Assembly: GCA_016650175.1 (NCBI GenBank)
Contig: JAENWG010000003.1
Location: 21,839-85,838 of the forward strand
Length of the DNA: 64,000 nucleotides
Origin: Peptostreptococcaceae bacterium
GTDB taxonomy: Bacteria; Bacillota; Clostridia; Peptostreptococcales; Anaerovoracaceae
Direction of reading: 5' to 3'
In this document: piece after piece, positions 12,991-26,056 of the stretch
How the letters are laid out: each line of letters begins with the position of its first letter
Numbering within the stretch: position 1 is the first letter of the stretch
The notes under the pieces: model-generated
What the model was told of the DNA's origin: nothing
Databases searched by the model: none
What the model saw: only the letters and a program-made list of their open reading frames with translations
Translations under genes and position numbers: made by a program

Positions 12991-13009
12991 TAAAACAATA
13001 TATAAATAA

Positions 13010-13050
13010 AGGGACTGGATTCTGTTTCTAACAGAACCCAGTCCCTTTTA
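13010..13050. terminator. Bidirectional terminator between convergent PQ-loop gene and hydrogenase
   Basis: AAAGGGACTGGATTCTGTTTCTAACAGAACCCAGTCCCTTTT hairpin with A and T flanks. Confidence 0.75.
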
Positions 13051-13090: not shown

Positions 13091-14830
13091 TTATACAAAT
13101 GGATTTGGAGGAATGTCCCACTTTGTATGATCCGTATGAAGTTCATGAACTAAATCAGGTCGTCTTTCATATAACGAAATAATTGATGGATTTTCATGAC
13201 TGAATCTTAAATCGGCTTTTTTATCTAATGTATATAACGTCGAGCCACGAAAAAGTGATATTTCAAAATCATGAGATATAGGTTGACCTCCGCCACCTAC
13301 GCAGCCTCCTGGGCAGGCCATTATCTCAACAAAGTGATAATGTTTTTCTCCCTTTTCTACAGCATCTACTATTTTTCTGGCATTAGCAAGACCACTAGCT
13401 ATGGCAATATTTAGTGTCTTATCACCAATGTCTATCTTAGCTTCACGCCATCCAACATTACCATCTACCGGGCGTACGTTATAGAATTTGCTTGGGTCAG
13501 GTTTTTCATTGGTAAGTATAGCATATACACTTCTAAGTGATGCTTCCATTACTCCTCCTGTAGCCCCAAAAATCACTCCAGCTCCTGTACCATCGCCTAC
13601 GTTAGCTCCCTGAATTCTGTCAAATTGACCTTCCTCTAAAACTGCAGGGTCGATGAAACTTGCTTTAACCATTCTAGCCAATTCTCTTGTAGTTATTACT
13701 AAATCAACATCAGGGTCTCCATTAGTTTTCATAGTAGGAAGTTCGCGTTCAGCTTTTTTTGCTAAACATGGCATAATAGATACTACATTAATATTTTCTC
13801 TATCTATACACATGTTTTTAGCAACCTCTTCTTTAATTACTGTACCAAACATCTGCTGAGGAGACTTAGCTGTTGATAAGTGTTTAACTGAATTCGGAAA
13901 ATTAGACTTAATAAAACTAACCCAAGCTGGACAACAAGAAGTATAAAGCGGAAATTTAGATTCATCACCTTCTTTTAGTAAATGAATAAATTCCATACCC
14001 TCTTCCATTATTGTTAGGTCAGCTGAAAACGTAGTATCAAATATATAATCAGCACCCATTCTTCTAAGAGAAGTAATTAGTTTTTCTACTGTAGCTACTT
14101 CAGAACTAATTCCAAGATCTTCGCCCCACGCAGTTCTAATGGCTGGTGCTATCTGTACTATAGTTACCTTACTTTCATCGTGCAACATATCTCTAAATAT
14201 TTCTGTATCATCTCTTACTCGTAACGCGCCAACCGGACAATGAACTATACATTGCCCACATAGTACGCAGTGAGAATCATTAATATCCTTGTTTCCGTAT
14301 ACACCTACTGATGTCTTACCACCGCTATTTACTGTATCCCAAACACCTACATTTTGAATATTATTACAAACTTGTACGCATCTTAAGCAACTTATACACT
14401 TAGCATTATCTCTAATTAAAGGAAAATTTATATCCCAAGGTTTTTTTACTATCTTTTTTTCATATATGTTGTCGATTATTCCCAAAGTATTTGACAAAGT
14501 TTGAAGTTCACAGTTACCAGATCTTACGCACGAAGTACATGTTACTTCATGATTAGAAAGAAGAAGTTCTACATTTATTCTTCTAGCTTTTCTTACTTTT
14601 TCGGATCTTGTATTTATTACCATATCCTCAGATACTACCGTATTACAAGAAGTAACAAGCCTTTGGGCTCCTTCTACTTCAACGAGACAAACTCTACAAC
14701 TACCTGTTTGATTTACATTTTTAAGATAACAAAGCGTAGGTATTTTTATTCCTATCTCCTTGGCAGCTTCTAATATTGTAGTACCTTCTTTTACGCTGAC
14801 TTTTTCTTTATTTATAGTTAAATTTACCAT
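13091..14830 (-). CDS. [FeFe]-hydrogenase catalytic subunit (group A type, NuoG-like N-terminus)
   Basis: 2Fe-2S domain (CYLKNVNQTGSCRVC), HEVTCTSCVRSGNC, two 4Fe-4S clusters, H-cluster motifs YTSCCPAWV, MPCLAKKAE, EIMACPGGCVGGGGQP. Confidence 0.93.
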   Translation of the reverse strand: MVNLTINKEKVSVKEGTTILEAAKEIGIKIPTLCYLKNVNQTGSCRVCLVEVEGAQRLVTSCNTVVSEDMVINTRSEKVRKARRINVELLLSNHEVTCTSCVRSGNCELQTLSNTLGIIDNIYEKKIVKKPWDINFPLIRDNAKCISCLRCVQVCNNIQNVGVWDTVNSGGKTSVGVYGNKDINDSHCVLCGQCIVHCPVGALRVRDDTEIFRDMLHDESKVTIVQIAPAIRTAWGEDLGISSEVATVEKLITSLRRMGADYIFDTTFSADLTIMEEGMEFIHLLKEGDESKFPLYTSCCPAWVSFIKSNFPNSVKHLSTAKSPQQMFGTVIKEEVAKNMCIDRENINVVSIMPCLAKKAERELPTMKTNGDPDVDLVITTRELARMVKASFIDPAVLEEGQFDRIQGANVGDGTGAGVIFGATGGVMEASLRSVYAILTNEKPDPSKFYNVRPVDGNVGWREAKIDIGDKTLNIAIASGLANARKIVDAVEKGEKHYHFVEIMACPGGCVGGGGQPISHDFEISLFRGSTLYTLDKKADLRFSHENPSIISLYERRPDLVHELHTDHTKWDIPPNPFV

Positions 14831-16668
14831 TTTTTCCTCCTATCTTTCCATTCTGCTCCGTAACCATAGTGATCACATCTCATGCATCGGCTAGCTTCTT
14901 TAACAGCTTCATCAAGAGACAAACCATTCTCTACAGCTTCAAAGTCATGGCGACGAACTCTTGCTAATCTTTCACTAGCATTTGCTCTGCCCCAAGGAGT
15001 TATGTTTACAATATCTGGATATGGTGCATCTAATTCAGGTTCTATAATATGGTTAAATCCTAAGTAATTATCAATATTTGCAGCCGCTACTTTTCCTGCA
15101 GCTACAGCCTTTATAACAGTTGCTGGACCAGTTACGCAGTCACCGCCTGAATACACGCCTTCCATTTGACCTACGTGTGCTTTTTCATTAGCTACTATTG
15201 CATCTCTGTCTAGTGGTATACTGTTCCTACCAAAGTGGTCAGATTCTATAGCTTGACCTATAGCTACAATTACTACATCGCAGTCAAATCTAAATGAAGG
15301 TGCAACTGAAGGAATAGGTACAGGTCTCTTTGACGAATCAAGCTGACCTGCTCTTTGACCTTTTGCCCAAAATGCAACTATTTGACCATTTTCATTTCTT
15401 TCTATCTTTTCAGGTGCCATTAGAGTTATAAGTTCGCAGCCTTCTGCTACTGCACCATCTATTTCATCCTCTAAAGCAGTCATATCTTGTCTGCCTCTTC
15501 TATATATTATTGATGTTGTTTCAGCTCCAAGCCTTACTACTGTTCTTGCAGCGTCCATTGCGACATTTCCACCACCAATTACGCATACTCTTTTGCCTGA
15601 AAAATCATATTCTTCGCCGTCTTCTATTCTTCCTAAAAGATCGATTGCAGGTATTACATCATCGCAATCAACACCTTCTATATCAAGCTTTTTATCACTG
15701 TGCGCACCAATTGCTATATATACTGCATCAAACTCTTTTCTTAGATCACTTATTCCTTTATTCCCGTCACTGCCTATCTTTGAGTTGAAATTTACATTTA
15801 TCCCAACTTTTAGTATGCTGTTTATATCTTGGTCTAAATTTTCTGCTGGTAACCTGTATCTCGGAATACCATATCTCATCATTCCACCAAGAGTTTTATG
15901 CTTTTCAAACACCTCAATATCATGACCCATTATTGCCAAAAAATATGCTGCGGTAAGACCAGCTGGACCGCCACCAATTACTGCTACTCTTTTGCCTGTA
16001 GGTTCACACTTTTTAGGCGGTTCTATTTCATTAGATGCATTATCACATGCAAAACGCTTAAGTTCCCTAATATTTACTGCATCATCTATTAATCTACGTC
16101 TACACTTAGTTTCGCAAGGGTGTTCACATACATATCCGCATACTGCAGGAAAAGGATTGTCTTTACGAATAATCCTAATTGCATCTTCATATCTCCCATC
16201 TGCTACCATAGCAATATAGTCAGGTACTTCAACACCTGCCGGGCATTGTGCCTGACATGGTATTTCCTGAGTTGTAGTAAATGCACAGCAACCGTGCTCA
16301 ATATGGCTGATATAGTCTTCTCTAAAACAATTGACGCTGTTAATTACTGCTTCTGCTGCCTTAAACCCTATTGCGCAGTCAGCAGAATTATATATAGTAT
16401 CGGCAGTTGTTTCTAAAAGTTCTAACGTCGCATAATCACCCTTACCATCCATTATTTTTTCAAGCATGATGATAAGTTGTGCTATTCCTACTCTGCACGG
16501 TGTACACTTACCACATGATTGTGCATGGCAAAGTCTTAAAAATACTGTTACCATGTCAACAGGGCATAATATAGCTGCACCTGAGTTAACACGCATCGTC
16601 ACTGAAGCATAAATTTGGTCTAATGCCAGTTCCGCTCTTGAAGGGGGTTCAATCTTAATCCTATCCAC
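14824..16668 (-). CDS. NuoF C-terminal 4Fe-4S domain fused to GltD/NfnL-like NAD(P)H/FAD oxidoreductase
   Basis: CGKCTPCRVG (NADH_4Fe-4S) then CQAQCPAGVEVPDYI...CGYVCEHPCETKCRR (GltD N-terminal Fe-S) and two dinucleotide-binding motifs (VAVIGGGPAGLTAAY, VCVIGGGNVAMDAAR). Overlaps hydA by 7 nt. Confidence 0.88.
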   Translation of the reverse strand: MDRIKIEPPSRAELALDQIYASVTMRVNSGAAILCPVDMVTVFLRLCHAQSCGKCTPCRVGIAQLIIMLEKIMDGKGDYATLELLETTADTIYNSADCAIGFKAAEAVINSVNCFREDYISHIEHGCCAFTTTQEIPCQAQCPAGVEVPDYIAMVADGRYEDAIRIIRKDNPFPAVCGYVCEHPCETKCRRRLIDDAVNIRELKRFACDNASNEIEPPKKCEPTGKRVAVIGGGPAGLTAAYFLAIMGHDIEVFEKHKTLGGMMRYGIPRYRLPAENLDQDINSILKVGINVNFNSKIGSDGNKGISDLRKEFDAVYIAIGAHSDKKLDIEGVDCDDVIPAIDLLGRIEDGEEYDFSGKRVCVIGGGNVAMDAARTVVRLGAETTSIIYRRGRQDMTALEDEIDGAVAEGCELITLMAPEKIERNENGQIVAFWAKGQRAGQLDSSKRPVPIPSVAPSFRFDCDVVIVAIGQAIESDHFGRNSIPLDRDAIVANEKAHVGQMEGVYSGGDCVTGPATVIKAVAAGKVAAANIDNYLGFNHIIEPELDAPYPDIVNITPWGRANASERLARVRRHDFEAVENGLSLDEAVKEASRCMRCDHYGYGAEWKDRRKKW

Positions 16669-16670
16669 AG

Positions 16671-17246
16671 TTAATTCTCCTTTACATATATCAAATTATT
16701 TTTATCAAAATATTTATTAACATTTTCATCGTGCGTAGCTATGATTACGGTCTTCCCTACGCTCATCTCTTTTACATATCCCATAACTTTTACGAGTGTT
16801 TCTTTATCTATTCCAACAAAGGGTTCATCCATTATCAGTAGATCCGAGTCCTTAAGAAGCGCTCTAATTATTGCTACTCTTCTTTTCATTCCTCCTGAGA
16901 GCTCATTTACTTTCTTGTTTTTAGCATCAAAGATTTCCGTTCTCTTTAATGCTTCATATATTTTTTCTTTGTCTTCTGTAACTAAGTTTAAATTTTTGAA
17001 AACACTAAGGCTTTCAATTAATCTGTCTTCTTGAAATACGGTAGATAAACTTTTATCTGTAAACCCTGTTATTTCTCCTTTATCAATCTCAACAAACCCC
17101 ATAAGTACTCTTAGAATCGTTGTTTTGCCACTTCCCGACTTACCTAACAACAGATTTATCTTGTTATCAATAAAAGTTTCATTAAAGTCTTTTACTATAT
17201 ATTTATCTGATATTTTAATGTCTACATTTTTAAACTTTATATCCAT
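16671..17246 (-). CDS. ABC transporter ATP-binding protein (NitT/TauT type)
   Basis: Walker A GKSGSGKTT, signature LSGGMKRRVAI, Walker B LLIMDEP. Confidence 0.9.
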   Translation of the reverse strand: MDIKFKNVDIKISDKYIVKDFNETFIDNKINLLLGKSGSGKTTILRVLMGFVEIDKGEITGFTDKSLSTVFQEDRLIESLSVFKNLNLVTEDKEKIYEALKRTEIFDAKNKKVNELSGGMKRRVAIIRALLKDSDLLIMDEPFVGIDKETLVKVMGYVKEMSVGKTVIIATHDENVNKYFDKNNLIYVKEN

Positions 17247-17250
17247 AAAA

Positions 17251-17997
17251 TCACCTTAAAAGCCTTTCTATGCTAACATCAAAAAGTTTAAGAATAACCT
17301 TTTCAAATATGATACTAACAATTATTATGACTATAGTAAAGGCTAATATATCTGCTGTATCAAGCTGTATCTTAGCTAAGTAAAGCTGTTCTCCTATTGA
17401 ACCGTCAGGTATACCTATTACTTCAGCAGCAATTCCTGCCTTCCAGCACATTCCTATTGCTAAATTAAGACCTGCTGTAAAATATGACTTTACTTCTGGT
17501 ACATATACATATATGGCTTTTTTAATTCCTTTTATTTCAAATATTTTTGACATTTCAATTAAGTTTTTATCCACATTTTCTATACCGTTTAACAGATTAG
17601 TATAAATTATAGGAAAACCTATCAAAACAGATATTAGTATTGATAGGTTATTAGAAGATATAAATACAAGTGCAAATATAATAAAAGAAGCAACAGGTAT
17701 TGATTTTATTGTAACAAGTAGTGGATAAAGAAGTGATTTTACCCAATTTGTTTTATGTGATAAAGGTGCCAATACTAATGCAGTAATTATTGAAATAAAT
17801 ATTCCTAAAAATATTCTTAGAGATGAATATCCTATAGACATCCAAAACTCTGATTCACCTGCTAAAACAACTAACCTTTTAGATACGTCCACTAAAGAAA
17901 CAAAAAGAAAGTTATCGCTATTTAAAATAGCGATACTTTCCCATACTATAATCCAAAATACTACTGTCCATATCTTTATTCCATCAGGTCTTTTCAT
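17251..17997 (-). CDS. ABC transporter permease (NitT/TauT type)
   Basis: Multiple TM segments; EAA-like loop; flanked by SBP and ATPase genes. Confidence 0.88.
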   Translation of the reverse strand: MKRPDGIKIWTVVFWIIVWESIAILNSDNFLFVSLVDVSKRLVVLAGESEFWMSIGYSSLRIFLGIFISIITALVLAPLSHKTNWVKSLLYPLLVTIKSIPVASFIIFALVFISSNNLSILISVLIGFPIIYTNLLNGIENVDKNLIEMSKIFEIKGIKKAIYVYVPEVKSYFTAGLNLAIGMCWKAGIAAEVIGIPDGSIGEQLYLAKIQLDTADILAFTIVIIIVSIIFEKVILKLFDVSIERLLR

Positions 17998-18005
17998 TCT
18001 ATCCC

Positions 18006-18971
18006 CTATTTATTAATATAGTAAAATTCATCGCCAGGTAGTTCACCACCAACAGCTTCTGGATTTTGATTATATAACTCTTCAAGATATCCTTGTAGTT
18101 TAGTTTTCATTTTGTCACCGGTAATGCATACTATGTTGCAAGTAGGTATGGCAACTTTAGCTACTTCTTCCGGAAATATATCAAACTTACCGATTAGCGC
18201 AGCCGCTTCATCGTTATTATCGTTTACATAGGTAACACTTTCTTCATAACTCTCTAAGAATCTATCAACAGCATCAGGGTTATTGTCTACAAATTCTTTA
18301 TTCCCTATAATTACTCCTGTGATTAAAGTACTGGTATCGGTAACCTTATTCCATTCTTCAGTTAAATCAAGAGCTATTCTAACGTTTTCACCTTTCATGG
18401 TACTAGTCGTTACAAATGGCTGTGGAAGCATTGCTATAGTGCCTTCATTAGCTATAAGTGTTGCAGCACATTCCGAGTGTTCACTCTTCCATTCTATATT
18501 TACATCAGATGCAGGATCTATTCCGTTAGCTTCTAATATGTAATTTAAGCTGTATTCAGGAGTCGCACCTTTACCAGACGCTATGATTGTCTTCCCTTTT
18601 AGATCTTCTATGCTTTTTATGCTATCACCGTTTTCGCATATGTATATAACACCTAAGGTGTTAATGGCAAGTACATTTACATTACCATCTGTTTTATTAT
18701 ATAAAGTTGAAGCTAGATTAGCAGGTATACATGCTAAATCCGTTTCGCCTTTAGATATTTTAGCTACTACTTCATCTATAGAACCTGAAATCGTAAATGT
18801 ATATTCATTTTCGTTTACTGCTCCACTTTCAGAATCTTCCATTAATTTAACAAGTCCCATAGCTGTAGGCCCTTTTAATGTAGAAACATCAACACTGGCT
18901 GTTTCCTGGCTGCCACAACTTGTAAGTAATAATGTAAAAATCACTAATAATGCTACTATTATCTTTTTCAT
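18006..18971 (-). CDS. ABC transporter substrate-binding lipoprotein (NMT1/TauA-like)
   Basis: Lipobox LLLTSCGS; SBP-like fold sequence with IEDLKGKTIIASGKGATPEYSLNYILEANGI. Confidence 0.87.
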   Translation of the reverse strand: MKKIIVALLVIFTLLLTSCGSQETASVDVSTLKGPTAMGLVKLMEDSESGAVNENEYTFTISGSIDEVVAKISKGETDLACIPANLASTLYNKTDGNVNVLAINTLGVIYICENGDSIKSIEDLKGKTIIASGKGATPEYSLNYILEANGIDPASDVNIEWKSEHSECAATLIANEGTIAMLPQPFVTTSTMKGENVRIALDLTEEWNKVTDTSTLITGVIIGNKEFVDNNPDAVDRFLESYEESVTYVNDNNDEAAALIGKFDIFPEEVAKVAIPTCNIVCITGDKMKTKLQGYLEELYNQNPEAVGGELPGDEFYYINK

Positions 18972-19240: not shown

Positions 19241-19281
19241 ACAGAAGAAAACCGTTTTTCACGGTCTTCTTCTGTAAATTA
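19241..19281 (-). terminator. Terminator downstream of nucleotidyltransferase gene
   Basis: ACAGAAGAAAACCGtttttcACGGTCTTCTTCTGT hairpin; minus-strand T-run (…TTCTTCTGTTTTTGC). Confidence 0.7.
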
Positions 19282-24556: not shown

Positions 24557-26056
24557 TTATAATTTATTGTAAATATCAATCAATTCTGGGCCTTTTGCTT
24601 TATCCAAACCAGAATCCAAACATACATCTAAAAACGCTTTATCAAGAGCTTTTATTCTCTCATCATTTAAATCATTACTCTTCATTTCATTTATTCGCTC
24701 AACATAATCTCTTGATTTATCAAAGATAGTTTTACTACCTTCTTTTTTCCATATTCCTCTATCTTGATAATTCATTACTATGTTTCCGTAATACTGTTCC
24801 TTTTTATAATTTTTTAATGTATGCTTGTTAGCCATATAATTTCCGCCAGAACCAACATCAAATATTACGTCTTTTGCTAAAGTTGAATCATTGAATCTCA
24901 TTCCCTTTTCTAGGTGTTTTAATGTACCAATAAAATCAGCATCCATAACCAGTTTTTCAATACTCATTTCAGCAATAACATTTAACCCTCCTGGTCCAGA
25001 TACATTATCTATCCCAAGCATTAGTGCCATCATTCCACTTCTAGCAGTTTCACTTCCAGCCTGATAATCAATAACCTTTGAATCTGACATTGCTGCGTAA
25101 GTGTGAACTGGAAGACCATAATATTTACCCATAAGTGCATACCCTGCTGTAATCATGTTAGATTCCATAGCTTCCATAGGAGTATACATTGTTTTCATAT
25201 TGAATATACATGGTGCTCCACCATAAACAACAGGATGTCCTGGTTTTACAAGCTGTGCCAAAACCAAACCTGATAGTATTTCAACAGTATGTTGTAATAC
25301 TGCGCCTGCCAGTGTTATAGGTCCAGTTGCACCTGTGATTTGTGCAGAAATCAATTCTAAAGGTATATCTCTCTTCGCACAATCAATTATATTCTTTGCA
25401 CCAATAGTTGACCATTTCAAAGGTGAAGTAACACATACATCAAAAATTGTATATGGTTTATTTCTAACATTTTCCTCAGAGCCTAATACCGCTTTTAATA
25501 ACTCAAAGGTTCTTAATACTCCGTCTACGTCTGTAGATCCTCCTATAATAGGTTTACTGGAATTTCTCATTTCCGTATAATACAAGTACTGAGAACCAAG
25601 CTCACCTGGAGCTTCTTCACACACGATTGAAGATGATATAAAATCAAGTTCATCTAGACTATCCGCTACTTTTGTAAGTAACTTTAAATCACCAACATTT
25701 GAAAGTCGAACAGTAGAACCATCATGATCCAAAACGTTACAAGCACTACTTCCAGGATTAAACCTTATCTTGCCATCTCCAAAATCACAGTATTCATTAC
25801 CTTCTCTATCGTAAAGTTTAAACTGCGAAGGTGTACTGCATATACATTTTTCTACTATTTCTCTTGGGATTTTAACTTTTTGTGTATCCCAATCAACTTC
25901 ACATCCACCGTTTTCAAGTATTTTTAATGCTTCATCATACGCATATACGATTCCCAAGTTTTCTAGCAAATCTATTGCATTTTCATGCATTTCTTCAACC
26001 TGATTATCATTTAATATCCTAAACTGAGGCATATTATCAAACTCAAATTTCTTCAT
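24557..26056 (-). CDS. Trimethylamine methyltransferase (MttB) superfamily protein, non-pyrrolysine
   Basis: MttB-like sequence (GSSACNVLDHDGSTVRLSNVGDLKLLTKVADSLDELDFISS...GATGPITLAGAVLQHTVEILSGLVLAQLVKPGHPVVYGG); uninterrupted ORF with no internal TAG. Confidence 0.88.
   Translation of the reverse strand: MKKFEFDNMPQFRILNDNQVEEMHENAIDLLENLGIVYAYDEALKILENGGCEVDWDTQKVKIPREIVEKCICSTPSQFKLYDREGNEYCDFGDGKIRFNPGSSACNVLDHDGSTVRLSNVGDLKLLTKVADSLDELDFISSSIVCEEAPGELGSQYLYYTEMRNSSKPIIGGSTDVDGVLRTFELLKAVLGSEENVRNKPYTIFDVCVTSPLKWSTIGAKNIIDCAKRDIPLELISAQITGATGPITLAGAVLQHTVEILSGLVLAQLVKPGHPVVYGGAPCIFNMKTMYTPMEAMESNMITAGYALMGKYYGLPVHTYAAMSDSKVIDYQAGSETARSGMMALMLGIDNVSGPGGLNVIAEMSIEKLVMDADFIGTLKHLEKGMRFNDSTLAKDVIFDVGSGGNYMANKHTLKNYKKEQYYGNIVMNYQDRGIWKKEGSKTIFDKSRDYVERINEMKSNDLNDERIKALDKAFLDVCLDSGLDKAKGPELIDIYNKL

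Follow-up and report, generated by a model that had tools for sequence, protein, structure and literature searches.

An ABC importer linked to [FeFe]-hydrogenase genes, a candidate route of H-cluster precursor salvage in bacteria without HydE, HydF and HydG

The window, meaning the whole 64,000-nucleotide stretch analysed here, comes from a 1.6-Mb draft genome (G000, 78% complete) of a Peptostreptococcaceae bacterium. It carries five minus-strand open reading frames that encode, in the order of transcription, a substrate-binding lipoprotein (SBP), an ABC permease, an ABC ATPase, a flavoprotein and the [FeFe]-hydrogenase HydA (Table 1). The first four genes are separated by 8, 4 and 2 nt, and the flavoprotein and HydA genes overlap by 7 nt. 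A sequence-only reading of the window had proposed a five-gene operon with these positions and spacings; an open-reading-frame check bears out every one of them, and the operon is confirmed. A terminator scan found no terminator-like hairpins between the five genes. One such hairpin follows HydA and another closes the preceding unit, while two weaker matches fall within the operon's coding sequence (17935-17913 and 14670-14657), the number of terminator-like matches being near chance level. In the sister genome (G036, 97% complete), the genes stand in the same order wherever its contig covers them, with 79-94% identity.

Table 1. Genes and terminator-like features of the operon, in window coordinates
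Feature	Position	Strand	Details
Substrate-binding lipoprotein (SBP)	18006..18971	-	321 aa; lipobox LTSC; NMT1/TauA/SsuA-type fold; PF09084 E 5e-12
ABC permease	17251..17997	-	248 aa; PF00528 E 1.5e-15
ABC ATPase	16671..17246	-	191 aa; Walker A GKSGSGKTT, signature LSGGM; PF00005 E 6e-28
NuoF C-terminal [4Fe-4S] domain fused to GltD-type NAD(P)/FAD oxidoreductase	14824..16668	-	614 aa; GTG start
[FeFe]-hydrogenase HydA, group A	13091..14830	-	TIGR02512 456.3 bits (cut-off 405.95); motif check
Terminator-like hairpin 3' of HydA	13008..13048	-	19-bp stem
Terminator-like hairpin upstream of the SBP gene	19241..19275	-	closes the preceding unit

The three transporter proteins belong to the NMT1/TauA/SsuA class of ABC importers: PF09084, PF00528 and PF00005 are all matched above their gathering scores, and the SBP, whose lipobox reads MKKIIVALLVIFTLLLTSC, has the fold of the class. 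Its AlphaFold model (pLDDT 93.2, pTM 0.88) finds 3hn0 from P. distasonis as the best Foldseek match, followed by TauA, SsuA, PqqT with PQQ and ThiY-type proteins, with Thi5 also present; E-values against 3hn0, TauA, SsuA and the thiamine-type SBPs run from 1e-13 to 1e-22. The SBP has a nearly invariant signature, consisting of GPT 34-36, N85, P183-x-P185 (PxPF), W207, P276-x-C278, GG 308-309 and P312 (GG-x-P); C278 is cysteine in 67 of 70 aligned sequences and serine in the other 3. The importer falls below every NCBIfam equivalog cut-off for sulfonate, nitrate, taurine, choline and Sao transporters (SsuC 57.8 against 347, NtrB 41 against 209, SaoX 20.6 against 300, SaoP 54.3 against 295), and the transfer of an equivalog name was rejected on these scores. 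Fold neighbours such as TauA, SsuA, ThiY-type proteins and Thi5 would suit an importer of an ordinary nutrient, such as a sulfonate, a thiamine precursor or iron, that hydrogenase-bearing anaerobes happen to need. We consider this quite unlikely: the SBP scores 62.7 against the SsuA family model, far under its cut-off of 163.5, and no riboswitch was found in the window operon, searched up to E=1, nor did any of seven relatives show one.

HydA is a group A [FeFe]-hydrogenase, with a TIGR02512 score above the cut-off and intact cysteine motifs of the H-cluster (TSCCPAW, MPCLAKKAE and EIMACPGGCVGGGGQP). Its presumed electron partner, the flavoprotein, matches NF009410 (584.5 bits, cut-off 516), PF10589 (E 6e-22), PF14691 and PF07992. 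It had been described from sequence as a NuoF-GltD protein and as NfnL-like. The GltD part of the first description holds, and the NuoF part narrows to PF10589, its C-terminal [4Fe-4S] domain; the FMN/NADH domain is absent. The second is only partly apt; none of the five operon genes is of the NfnS type, and the operon thus does not encode the NfnSL pair of an Nfn transhydrogenase. The pairing of NuoF-GltD with HydA also occurs at L046, L076, L079, L080 and L194.

The importer and its hydrogenase neighbourhood extend well beyond the source genome. Orthologues of the SBP, defined as strong matches with E 3e-46 or better, occur in 46 of the 149 genomes of the family set, and a scan of named genomes adds 80 SBP loci in Lachnospiraceae, Oscillospiraceae, Coriobacteriia and Spirochaetes. 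The SBP of Gallibacter intestinalis is identical to that of one relative in the family set (G077), and the set therefore probably corresponds to GTDB's Anaerovoracaceae. The genes for SBP, permease and ATPase keep together as a conserved trio in most relatives whose flanking sequence is long enough to tell; the permease gene lies apart from the SBP gene in G019 and G148. HydA is found near the trio in many relatives, and in several gene orders. The order trio, NuoF-GltD, HydA is that of the window and its sister; elsewhere HydABC stands before or after the trio, NuoF-GltD and HydA are divergent from the SBP gene (G102, G019, G148), or both hydrogenase types surround it (G143). HydA lies within 10 kb of the SBP gene at 12 of 45 family loci (one genome counted twice) against 0.75 expected, and at 13 of 80 named-genome loci against 1.5 expected, where the expectation assumes three HydA genes per 2.5 Mb and the observed counts are lower bounds because many contigs are short. 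An unbiased clustering of neighbouring genes gives the same picture: HydA is the commonest family after the transporter genes, setting aside one cluster (no. 4) that has no measurable position relative to the SBP gene and looks like spurious open reading frames, and HydB, HydC and TM1266 are next in frequency. The linkage of SBP and HydA is therefore conserved across genomes, and the lack of it that the sequence-only reading had named as evidence against its own proposal is not what is seen. Two further observations concern individual loci. Three SBP orthologues contain one in-frame TAG or TAA (G058:C58, G086:C57, G114:C58), possibly through decay or assembly errors, and in the Gallibacter relative a ROOL RNA (L043 4432-4998) precedes the SBP gene by ~5 kb.

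HydE, HydF and HydG are the known maturases of the H-cluster. Some species are known to have an [FeFe]-hydrogenase without any of the three (PMC3226654). Neither the window's genome nor its sister, both of which encode HydA, has HydE, HydF or HydG above the NCBIfam cut-offs. Across the family set, the SBP is present in 46 of 113 genomes with HydA and in none of the 36 without it. Among the genomes with HydA, it occurs in 30 of 40 that lack HydE, HydF and HydG and in 16 of 73 that have any maturase (Fisher p=7e-8), a contrast that persists at ≥90% completeness (20 of 24 against 12 of 48, p=3e-6) and when each genus is represented by a single genome (17 of 22 against 12 of 44, p=2e-4), in tests that are not fully tree-aware and include many drafts. 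The named genomes agree, since 24 of 25 with the SBP encode HydA. Eight isolates have HydA and the SBP with none of the three maturases above cut-off, namely Gallibacter intestinalis, Murimonas intestini, Blautia hansenii, Blautia sp. Marseille-P3201T, Eisenbergiella tayi, Slackia faecicanis, Roseburia inulinivorans and Olsenella uli An820.

Many genomes of the set are draft metagenome assemblies, and the missing maturases could in principle be an artefact of incomplete assembly or of divergent maturase sequences, with the rest due to chance linkage. We regard this as extremely improbable, in view of the 20 SBP-bearing genomes that lack all three maturase genes at ≥90% completeness and of the eight isolates. 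Divergent maturases should also have been detected, because the profiles reached as far as ThiH and PylB, which are related, and GTPases, which are not. One such match, a HydE-like hit in the window's genome, was rejected as a maturase, as it is PylB (L165, G000:C54:12480-13340, 400 bits). As a separate matter, since PylB is encoded, this genome may use pyrrolysine; by reading, an MttB-like methyltransferase frame without an in-frame TAG lies in the window at 24557-26056.

The association has exceptions of several kinds. For sixteen SBP-bearing family genomes, import would be an extra, as they also encode at least one Hyd maturase (all three in 14). Conversely, the SBP is missing from ten HydA-bearing genomes that have no maturase either, four of them at ≥90% completeness, and the importer is therefore not the only route. 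Paraeggerthella hongkongensis (L138) has the SBP with no HydA, HydF or HydG detected. With that exception, the importer shows both genomic properties proposed for a salvage importer: it keeps company with HydA and is enriched in genomes that lack HydEFG. In Paraeggerthella, a Crp/Fnr-like gene lies just upstream of the SBP gene. Along a tree of 70 SBP sequences, at least 16 changes of the maturase label occur, at least 6 of them on well-supported branches, which we read as repeated HydEFG loss in lineages that retain the importer. The tie to HydA is specific to true orthologues. Of 26 genomes with only weak SBP homologues, probably paralogues, 13 lack HydA, compared with none of the 46 genomes with orthologues, and this too speaks against the import of an ordinary nutrient.

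The neighbourhood of the SBP gene also overlaps that of the maturases. TM1266, the 'iron-only hydrogenase regulator' family (here matched at 111 bits against a cut-off of 60.8), is found in 58 of 73 genomes with HydA and a maturase, where it commonly adjoins hydE or hydG, and in 1 of 36 genomes without HydA. Among maturase-less genomes, it occurs in 15 of 30 with the SBP and in 1 of 10 without; 11 of those 15 carry it immediately upstream of the SBP gene, in the same orientation. In G025, hydG, TM1266 and the SBP gene are neighbours. A gene for a HydE-like radical SAM protein, scoring 189.7 bits against the HydE cut-off of 254.6, directly follows the trio in G111 (L052 4841-5839) and G045 (L163) and lies on a separate contig in G037 (L164); all three genomes lack HydF and HydG. 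The importer therefore occupies the genomic place of maturases.

These patterns bear on the substrate that had been guessed at from the operon, either a precursor of an electron donor or acceptor or a cofactor. The operon shared with HydA and a GltD-type oxidoreductase, together with the organic anions that the importer family transports, would suit an importer of an electron donor or acceptor, or of a precursor of one, linked to the H2 enzyme through its metabolism. However, the importer accompanies several hydrogenase types, including GltD-linked enzymes, HydABC and more distant HydA proteins, a variety that would go unexplained if the cargo were a dedicated electron donor or acceptor, and the neighbour clustering shows no recurrent catabolic enzyme beside the trio. 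This explanation also leaves the excess of HydEFG-less genomes and the TM1266 neighbourhood unaccounted for. It explains least of the readings considered; we hold it to be very unlikely, and rejected it for want of a recurring catabolic gene and of any account of the maturase pattern. Of the guesses made from sequence, the cofactor or precursor is the one favoured by the tracking of HydA, by TM1266, by the occasional HydE-like or HydG neighbours and by the enrichment in genomes lacking HydEFG, all of which the donor or acceptor fits poorly.

The associations give good support to a role of the importer in H-cluster supply. The main rival to salvage of a diiron unit concerns what would be supplied: the importer may provide a simple building block, such as an amino acid, a thiol, a cyanide or CO donor or an aromatic compound, to a HydEFG-independent pathway of H-cluster assembly. 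Such a supply would likewise account for the ties to HydA, to TM1266 and to the absence of HydEFG, and the HydE-like gene after the trio in G111 and G045 is consistent with it. Further support comes from 19 family genomes that have HydA, HydE and HydF without HydG, all of which lack the SBP. At many of the HydG-less loci examined, HypF, HypD, HypE and/or NifH/NifD/NifK-like genes stand beside HydF, HydE or TM1266 (the loci are L189 in G082, L194 in G093, L185/L186 in G021 and G103, L202 in G079, L193 in G056, L184 in G032, L187, L188 and L191); in the one such locus scored, HypF, HypD and HypE are well above the NCBIfam cut-offs. These genes hint that the H-cluster may get its CO and CN ligands from a source that does not depend on HydG, and because of their position alternative assembly routes seem to exist. 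Nevertheless, among maturase-less genomes no family of assembly enzymes is found repeatedly next to the trio. Its commonest neighbours are HydA, HydB, HydC and TM1266, and we judge the import of a building block unlikely, if still to be reckoned with.

A second, unrelated ABC importer with a FecCD/BtuC-type permease was also seen in the family, adjoining hydE, TM1266 or nitrogenase-like genes (L172 in G146, L173 in G099, L174/L201 in G134, L190 in G057, L195 in G117 and L196 in G090). Its ATPase often has a C-terminal TM1266 domain, and a FecB-type SBP is present in L201 and L190. These features hint at a second importer tied to the H-cluster system.

On the reading we prefer, the trio would be a cofactor-salvage importer for the diiron subsite or one of its precursors, whose uptake would let apo-HydA be activated without HydEFG; we put the chances for and against it about level. 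The lipoprotein would capture, from outside the cell, an anionic precursor of the H-cluster; the likeliest candidate is the diiron dithiolate subsite carrying CO and CN, or an intermediate close to it. The permease and ATPase would carry this cargo inward. It would then insert spontaneously into apo-HydA already holding its [4Fe-4S] cluster, and with that insertion HydE, HydF and HydG would not be needed. In the source genome, the importer shares an operon with the GltD-linked hydrogenase that would use the product. The cofactor would have to come from outside the cell, for example from lysed HydEFG-positive neighbours. The step from H-cluster supply to a diiron cargo is one we infer, and the fact that the NMT1/TauA/SsuA fold family binds many anions counts against it. 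Import of a diiron complex is chemically possible, because synthetic [2Fe]adt added to the medium activates apo-HydA in E. coli cells without maturases (PMC6984386). Our search of the literature open without subscription turned up neither an importer connected with the assembly or supply of the H-cluster nor HydG-less maturation. More broadly, bacteria of several gut lineages may repeatedly have lost HydEFG and come to obtain the finished organometallic diiron subsite from neighbours through a dedicated importer, as a shared, vitamin-like good, a proposal that we find possible if on balance doubtful.

The analysis names a candidate gene set for metal-centre supply in [FeFe]-hydrogenase species without maturases (compare PMC3226654), and such species include ordinary cultured gut bacteria. 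If salvage of the diiron subsite is true, an organometallic cofactor would join the substances that microbes share, the H2 output of the gut would depend on cross-feeding, and a natural uptake route would be at hand for hydrogenase activation in engineered cells.

Several known systems offer comparisons. The operon's HydA gene resembles those of group A2 of HydDB, the 'glutamate synthase-linked' hydrogenases, in adjoining a GltD-type gene. The published rule asks for a downstream protein with a GltD-type and not a NuoF domain (PMC5037454), and it fits imperfectly because the GltD-type gene here lies upstream and carries the NuoF C-terminal [4Fe-4S] domain. With the HydEFG maturation system, the importer has in common the client HydA and the TM1266 gene; unlike that system, it is found mostly where HydE, HydF and HydG are absent. 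PqqT (9b1v), a periplasmic PQQ-binding protein, has the same fold as the SBP (E 7.5e-15). Many bacteria with PQQ enzymes import PQQ rather than make it (PMC12124388), and the logic, in which strains without the biosynthesis of a cofactor take it up, would be common to both importers. PqqT differs from the SBP in sequence (~14% identity) and in its presumed cargo, the SBP being a Gram-positive-type lipoprotein encoded beside a hydrogenase. The nearest solved structure, 3hn0 (Parabacteroides distasonis BDI_1369, a structural genomics entry labelled 'nitrate transport protein'), is ~21% identical to the SBP and shares with it a GPT-type loop, a cysteine aligned with C278 and a GG-x-LP end. Finally, the nitrate, sulfonate, taurine and HMP importers of the NMT1/TauA/SsuA/ThiY type have the lipoprotein SBP, the permease and ATPase domains and the fold in common with the importer described here, which differs from them in a signature of its own and in its linkage to [FeFe]-hydrogenase. 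The importer proteins are a variant of a known importer class, for which the proposed cargo would be new.
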